64,000 bases of DNA, from the NCBI GenBank assembly GCA_028866655.1, contig JAGWHQ010000002.1, positions 62,001 through 126,000 of the forward strand, in the 5' to 3' direction. The stretch comes from Nitrososphaerota archaeon. GTDB taxonomy: Archaea; Thermoproteota; Nitrososphaeria; Nitrososphaerales; Nitrosopumilaceae. Under the pieces are notes generated by a model. That model saw only the letters and a program-made list of their open reading frames with translations, did not search any database and was not told the DNA's origin. Below, in pieces: positions 42,957 through 44,240 of the stretch. How positions within the stretch are numbered: the first letter of the stretch is position 1; every line of letters starts with the position of its first letter. Both the position numbers and the translations under genes were made by a program.

Positions 42957-43286
42957 TTAATTGGGACTCAATGTTATGATGGGTTCTGGTTTTCTTATGC
43001 TTACTTCGGCTCTGCTTATTCTGCTCTTATACACCTTGAATTTTTTTCCACTCTCAGATAATATCCACTTGTCTACTTTGACAAGTGTCAACTCTTCTAA
43101 ATCTGAAATCTTTTTGTAGACTGAGCTTAATGGAATTCTATATTTTTCTGATAATTCTAGAGCAGTCATTCCTTCCTTGATGATTGAAAACAATATTGAT
43201 CTTGACTGGGCATCAGCCAGTGCCTCAAGAATTTTTTGATTTACATCATACTTTTTGAGTTGCGATAACGGTACTTTCTTTTTCAA
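42957..43286 (-). CDS. Winged HTH transcriptional regulator
   Basis: 109 aa ArsR/Trm-like helix-turn-helix: ILEALADAQSRSILFSII, recognition region LSEKYRIPLSSVYKKISDLEE, wing LVKVDKWILSESGKKF. No obvious metal-binding cysteines. Divergent from the ZIP transporter gene with three palindromes in between, so autoregulation and control of the transporter are likely. Box A (GTTTAAATAG) 30 nt upstream of ATG. Confidence 0.8.
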   Translation of the reverse strand: MKKKVPLSQLKKYDVNQKILEALADAQSRSILFSIIKEGMTALELSEKYRIPLSSVYKKISDLEELTLVKVDKWILSESGKKFKVYKSRISRAEVSIRKPEPIITLSPN

Positions 43287-43297
43287 TATTTTTTGAA

Positions 43298-43385
43298 TTA
43301 GGCAAGCCTAACTATTTAAACGACGCGAGTTATTCTAAGAACTTAGAACAAGTTTGTAATTTAAATAAGTTAGCTAATCCTAACT
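43298..43385. promoter_or_regulatory. Divergent promoter with three palindromic operator candidates
   Basis: TTAGGC-AA-GCCTAA (43298-43311) lies between the HTH gene's box A (about 43312-43320) and its start. TTCTAAG-AA-CTTAGAA (43333-43348) is central. AGTTAG-N6-CTAACT (43368-43385) lies between the ZIP gene's box A (TAATTTAAATA, about 43357-43367) and its GTG. The two outer sites cover each transcription start. The first resembles DtxR/IdeR-type TTAGG...CCTAA boxes. Confidence 0.6.
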
Positions 43386-43391
43386 GAATCA

Positions 43392-44240
43392 GTGATTGAT
43401 TACTGGCAGCTTTTGTTACTTGGAGCAATAGCTGGATTTACAATATTTCTTGGTCTTCCGGTTGCAGCACTACAAAATCTTAGCCATAAAAGAAAAGGAT
43501 TCCTTAACGCGTTTGCACTTGGAATTCTAGTATTTCTAATAATAGATGTATTTAGTCATGGATGGGATACTGCATCAACAGCTGCAACTAGCGCGGCTGC
43601 TGGAAAAGGCTCTGTTGAAAACGCGGTAATTGATATTGCTGCACTGTTTGGCGGTATTGCAATAGGTCTACTGGGATTGGTGTTTTATGAAACAAAATTC
43701 ATGACAAAAAGTTTCCCCCAGATATTGTCCATTGATAACATCAAGGAAGGTGATGATCATCTTCACAGATTATTCCATGAGGCAAATGCATACAAACTTG
43801 CAATGATGATTGCAGTTGGAATTGGCGCACATAATTTTAGTGAAGGTTTGGCAATTGGCCAATCTTATGTAGCAGGAGAAATTGGTCTTGCAATCATATT
43901 AATAATAGGATTTGGTGCACACAATACTACTGAAGGGTTTGGTATTGCAGGTCCTCTTACTGGAATATTGAAAAAACCTAACGCAAAATTCTTGGCCAAA
44001 GTGGGATTAATTGGAGGAGGTCCTACATTTGTTGGAACCATGATTGGTAGCTTGTGGATATCTGATGTTGCATACATTCTATTTTTATCAATGGCAGGAG
44101 GTGCTCTAATTTACGTGTCCCTGTTGATGTACAATTCAGGACGAAGGCAAACCACAAACAATGTTTTGATGGTGGGAATTTTTGTTGGTCTATGTGCCGG
44201 GTTCATCACTGATCTCATTGTGACACTTGGCGGAGCATAA
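43392..44240 (+). CDS. ZIP-family metal transporter
   Basis: 282 aa, about eight membrane helices. Metal-site helices GAHNFSEGLAIGQ and GAHNTTEGFGIAGP carry the ZIP H-N-x-x-E-G motifs; a His-containing loop (GDDHLHRLFHE) links helices 3 and 4. Imports Zn, Fe or Mn. GTG start at 43392, leaderless with box A 30 nt upstream. Metal type is not readable from sequence; the TTAGG-type operators hint at iron or manganese control. Confidence 0.9.
   Translation: MIDYWQLLLLGAIAGFTIFLGLPVAALQNLSHKRKGFLNAFALGILVFLIIDVFSHGWDTASTAATSAAAGKGSVENAVIDIAALFGGIAIGLLGLVFYETKFMTKSFPQILSIDNIKEGDDHLHRLFHEANAYKLAMMIAVGIGAHNFSEGLAIGQSYVAGEIGLAIILIIGFGAHNTTEGFGIAGPLTGILKKPNAKFLAKVGLIGGGPTFVGTMIGSLWISDVAYILFLSMAGGALIYVSLLMYNSGRRQTTNNVLMVGIFVGLCAGFITDLIVTLGGA

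Follow-up and report, generated by a model that had tools for sequence, protein, structure and literature searches.

The HTH/ZIP divergent promoter

The window analysed here (G000:C22:62001-126000, a 64-kb stretch of DNA) comes from the 1.42-Mb draft genome of a Nitrosotalea-type ammonia-oxidising soil archaeon, whose closest named relatives belong to Candidatus Nitrosotalea. It contains a gene for a small winged-helix protein, HTH109, divergent from a gene encoding a ZIP-family metal transporter, which passes the PF02535 cut-off (39.3 bits versus 35.1). The features of the locus are as follows:

42957..43286, minus strand: HTH109, 109-aa winged-helix protein; TTG start; weak HTH_20/ArsR-like match; no Cys or His
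43298..43311, no strand: box 1, TTAGGCAAGCCTAA; predicted single-dimer operator of the DtxR/IdeR type; just past the HTH109 TATA box, on its downstream side
43313..43320, minus strand: HTH109 TATA-like box, TTTAAATA; TATTTAAA is invariant across the alignment
43333..43348, no strand: middle palindrome, TTCTAAGAACTTAGAA; conserved as TTCyA-N6-TrGAA; probable operator of HTH109
43360..43367, plus strand: TATA-like box of the ZIP gene, TTTAAATA
43370..43383, no strand: box 2, TTAGCTAATCCTAA; second predicted TTAG-N6-CTAA operator; just past the ZIP TATA box, on its downstream side
43392..44240, plus strand: ZIP-family metal transporter, 282 aa; GTG start

The first-pass annotation of this DNA had described three palindromes in the promoter and all of them are present, namely box 1, the middle palindrome and AGTTAGCTAATCCTAACT at 43368-43385, in the region of box 2. 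Their centres (43304.5, 43340.5 and 43376.5) are spaced exactly 36 bp either side of the middle one, a TATA-like box is found between the middle palindrome and each outer one, and boxes 1 and 2 end 8–11 bp ahead of the predicted start codons. Palindromy by itself is modest evidence, since three perfect palindromes within 109 bp were reached in 68 of 5000 dinucleotide shuffles. Two copies of TTAG-N6-CTAA in the same stretch were reached in none (0/5000), and the 64-kb window holds no copies beyond boxes 1 and 2. The three-palindrome arrangement is confirmed as real and beyond chance. The two outer palindromes share one 14-bp element, TTAG-N6-CTAA. The CTAA/TTAG core formerly ascribed to all three does not extend to the middle palindrome, which runs in the reverse order (CTAA...TTAG) and is conserved as TTCyA-N6-TrGAA, i.e., as a separate element.

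The outer boxes and the DtxR-family proteins

When 28 HTH/ZIP intergenic regions were aligned, the two outer boxes and the two TATA boxes came out as conserved blocks. Box 2 reads TTAGCT-N2-[tc]CCTAA in 28/28 rows, box 1 keeps TTAG-N6-CTAA in every row except L048, and CTAA-CTATTTAAA is attached at box 1 in all 28. The palindromes are thus conserved in the orthologous intergenic regions, from which their absence had been named beforehand as a finding that would refute the proposed metal-responsive repression of both genes.

A search for the same box upstream of other metal genes, proposed in the first-pass annotation, showed that it recurs at the pentapeptide+ZIP2 operon, at multicopper oxidase genes and at NRAMP genes. 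The exact sequence TTAGGCNNGCCTAA occurs twice in the 1.42-Mb genome, both times at ZIP operons: once at the HTH/ZIP promoter and once at the start codon of the pentapeptide+ZIP2 operon. In 37 genomes of the genus, the looser TTAGGNNNNCCTAA is infrequent, at 0–4 sites per genome and mostly fewer than in the reversed control. Among 65 sites, classed by hand from the site table, 49 lie at HTH/ZIP promoters (25), HTH109/other-gene promoters (two), pentapeptide or other ZIP promoters (19) or multicopper oxidase promoters (three). One or two TTAG-N6-CTAA boxes, with a right half that is mostly GCTAA, are present at 16 of the 19 NRAMP promoters scored, versus 0.1 expected from shuffles, a figure which overstates significance because the compared sequences are related and not independent. 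The ZIPs of the G011 genus, which are distant (35–42% identity for the top matches), have no box at 25 of 30 loci and scattered variants at the rest. Upstream of the DtxR genes themselves no TTAG-N6-CTAA was seen at the 31 loci read, so there is no sign of DtxR autoregulation by the same box.

Several other occurrences were recorded. A TTAGGNNNNCCTAA site recurring in seven genomes (L006, L107, L116, L117, L120, L134 and L141) is a possible further target; it lies 51–53 bp upstream of a TFB-like gene in L006 and L117 and 80 bp upstream of an acetolactate-synthase-like gene in L107. In L098, L113 and L126, the protein neighbouring the box has the same box-plus-palindrome promoter; it is a multicopper oxidase by Pfam in L098 and similar in sequence in L126. 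In turn, G023 has 24 TTAGGCNNGCCTAA matches, of which those listed are all TTAGGCTGGCCTAA or its reverse complement; these look like a dispersed repeat with no relation to the HTH/ZIP promoter.

The sequence TTAGGNNNNCCTAA was proposed as the 14-bp single-dimer IdeR/DtxR consensus, with T3 plus C1 or C2 required in each quintet (PMC8464063). Box 1 matches it exactly and box 2, with one GCTAA and one CCTAA half-site, with one mismatch; both boxes carry the required bases, the GCTAA half of box 2 included. Unlike in known IdeR/DtxR operators, only the 14-bp form is found here, the 19-bp two-dimer consensus TTAGGTTAGSCTAACCTAA being absent from the HTH/ZIP intergenic region, and the boxes belong to an archaeal host and form a pair in a divergent promoter, each downstream of a TATA box. 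Two proteins encoded in the genome are DtxR-family members, with PF01325 and PF02742 above cut-off. The closest PDB sequences to DtxR-A are SloR/ScaR/DtxR. DtxR-B matches Bacillus subtilis MntR (5e-26), and all six MntR Mn ligands (D8, E11, H77, E99, E102 and H103; PMC6860424) are aligned; it scores 136.3 bits against the curated NCBIfam MntR model (NF003025), below the cut-off of 138, and is therefore named MntR-like only. DtxR-B adjoins NRAMP in several other genomes and is divergent from it in some relatives, which resembles the Bacillus MntR-mntH system; yet here the boxes are TTAG-N6-CTAA and the genes also include those for ZIP, the pentapeptide protein and multicopper oxidase. The published consensus, the recurrence at metal-uptake genes and the presence of two DtxR-family proteins make DtxR/IdeR-type recognition of the outer boxes a well-supported prediction, in agreement with the type originally assigned to TTAGG..CCTAA.

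Within this reading, the two proteins may divide the targets: DtxR-A (SloR/DtxR-like) would read TTAGG..CCTAA at the ZIP, pentapeptide and oxidase genes, DtxR-B (MntR-like) would read TTAGC..GCTAA at NRAMP, and the hybrid box 2 could be read by either. We regard this refinement, compatible with the main explanation, as tentative and slightly short of an even chance. It is consistent with the adjacency of DtxR-B and NRAMP, with G108, which keeps TTAGG boxes while neither DtxR-B nor an NRAMP box was detected, and with G097, which keeps the NRAMP box while neither DtxR-A nor TTAGGNNNNCCTAA was. Yet G028, 99% complete, keeps its TTAGG boxes and DtxR-A was not found in it; several of the genomes are incomplete drafts in which genes may fall in assembly gaps, and such absences are weak evidence.

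The middle palindrome and HTH109

HTH109 is matched in all 22 sampled genera of this ammonia-oxidising archaeal family. Its predicted fold (mean pLDDT 66; Foldseek gave no match below 1e-3) is too weak for classification, and it scores 19.8 bits against the ArsR/SmtB family model, for which the curated cut-off is 55. The window protein has no Cys and no His, nor do most orthologues, leaving none of the Cys/His metal ligands of ArsR/SmtB. A tandem HTH109 paralogue (about 45% identity) is directly adjacent in many genomes of other genera, e.g., G087:C8 and G011:C13.

The conserved form of the middle element, TTCyA-N6-TrGAA, reflects one position pair at which some sequences have C:G in place of T:A. 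We found that relatives of the HTH109 gene in other genera keep this palindrome where there is neither a ZIP gene nor a TTAGG box. Promoters of HTH109 in most other genera sampled lack TTAG-N6-CTAA and often retain TTCyA-N6-TrGAA, comparably far from the start codon. A perfect copy lies within 100 bp in 20 of 40 HTH109 promoters of other genera, almost all of them without a TTAGG box, versus 0.05 in shuffles. At pentapeptide/ZIP2 and oxidase promoters the element is found as well, some 70 bp upstream of the boxes: 19 of 21 have a copy at position -71 or -68 relative to the box, versus 0.03 in shuffles; relatedness of the sequences inflates the significance of both comparisons. Some distant HTH109 promoters have only an imperfect copy or none, and that of L271 has the TTAGG box and lacks the middle palindrome. 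Genome-wide, TTCyA-N6-TrGAA is not enriched in G000 (24 sites versus 17 in the reversed control), and 11 of the 15 loci examined fall inside ORFs; the argument is thus carried by its positions only.

In L105/L271 and L137/L264, the divergent neighbour of HTH109 is a 456-aa protein in place of ZIP, and the promoter has a TTAGG box. The L105 copy of this protein has no Pfam or NCBIfam match. L137/L264 retain the middle palindrome, which was not seen in L105/L271.

Since the middle palindrome goes with the HTH109 gene even in genera that have neither ZIP nor a TTAGG box there, the three palindromes are not supported as sites of one regulator. The middle one is most likely HTH109's own operator, and its distribution is most simply read as HTH109 binding there, controlling its own gene and acting on the pentapeptide/ZIP2/oxidase promoters. 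Alternatively, with the outer boxes still DtxR operators, the middle palindrome could be the site of another factor or a basal upstream element of HTH109-type promoters, as its AT-richness and closeness to both TATA boxes might suggest; we consider this unlikely, as the element is palindromic, accompanies the HTH109 gene from genus to genus and is found again, at a fixed distance, at other promoters. That HTH109 binds all three palindromes and is itself a metal-responsive repressor of both genes, as gene adjacency and the weak match to ArsR/SmtB-type models could imply, is very unlikely, given that the middle and outer motifs differ and vary independently, that HTH109 promoters of other genera keep the middle one only, that NRAMP promoters have TTAG-N6-CTAA with no middle-type palindrome seen in the stretch read, and that most orthologues lack Cys and His.

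The lack of Cys and His makes HTH109 an unlikely metal sensor, so that this role most likely falls to a DtxR protein. The first-pass annotation had offered either the adjacent winged-helix protein or a DtxR protein encoded elsewhere as the metal-dependent repressor of both genes; our data favour the latter for the outer boxes and speak against the former as the sensor.

A probable composite promoter and its setting

Taken together, the locus is quite probably a composite divergent promoter, in which the outer boxes would be operators of the DtxR family and the middle palindrome that of HTH109. The sequences, their conservation and positions, the recurrence at metal genes and the two DtxR-family proteins are shown directly, and the model's binding, metal, direction of control and acting DtxR protein are inferred by comparison. 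A DtxR-family metalloregulator encoded elsewhere in the genome would read the outer TTAG-N6-CTAA boxes as single-dimer operators. Under metal-replete conditions, a metal-bound dimer just downstream of each TATA box would keep RNA polymerase from engaging, and the ZIP importer and the HTH109 gene would be shut off together; under metal scarcity both would be released. The middle palindrome, midway between the TATA boxes, would let HTH109 regulate itself and add a second, non-metal input, and the TTCyA-N6-TrGAA element may connect HTH109 with the pentapeptide+ZIP2 and multicopper oxidase promoters, which boxes would likewise control.

In archaea, the metal-dependent repressor MDR1 blocks RNA polymerase from a site beyond BRE/TATA (PMC4158304, PMC2995911); since boxes 1 and 2 lie immediately downstream of the TATA boxes, a repressor bound there would be expected to act in the same way. 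The comparison with MDR1 of Archaeoglobus fulgidus is one of mechanism. We know of no second operator class for MDR1. A link between multicopper oxidase and ZIP permeases, as in the MCO/ZIP gene pairs of ammonia-oxidising archaea (PMC7785015), seems to exist here too, through common promoter elements; yet the Nitrosotalea ZIP was reported to be laterally acquired and MCO1 to be absent from four Nitrosotalea species (PMC5767755). Targeted searches of open-licence literature returned nothing on a Nitrosotalea metalloregulator or operator.

Ammonia-oxidising archaea are limited by metal supply, and at the HTH/ZIP promoter metal uptake is probably under two separate controls. The analysis supplies defined operator sequences, a small set of target genes and two candidate regulators, each of them open to testing in vitro. 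We put at even chances the broader proposal that HTH109 is a new autoregulated regulator with the operator TTCyA-N6-TrGAA, joined in the Nitrosotalea lineage to a DtxR-type metal regulon, with the result that both operators, at fixed spacing, are present in the promoters of ZIP, pentapeptide+ZIP2 and multicopper oxidase. If this is true, HTH109 would represent a previously undescribed regulator in ammonia-oxidising archaea.
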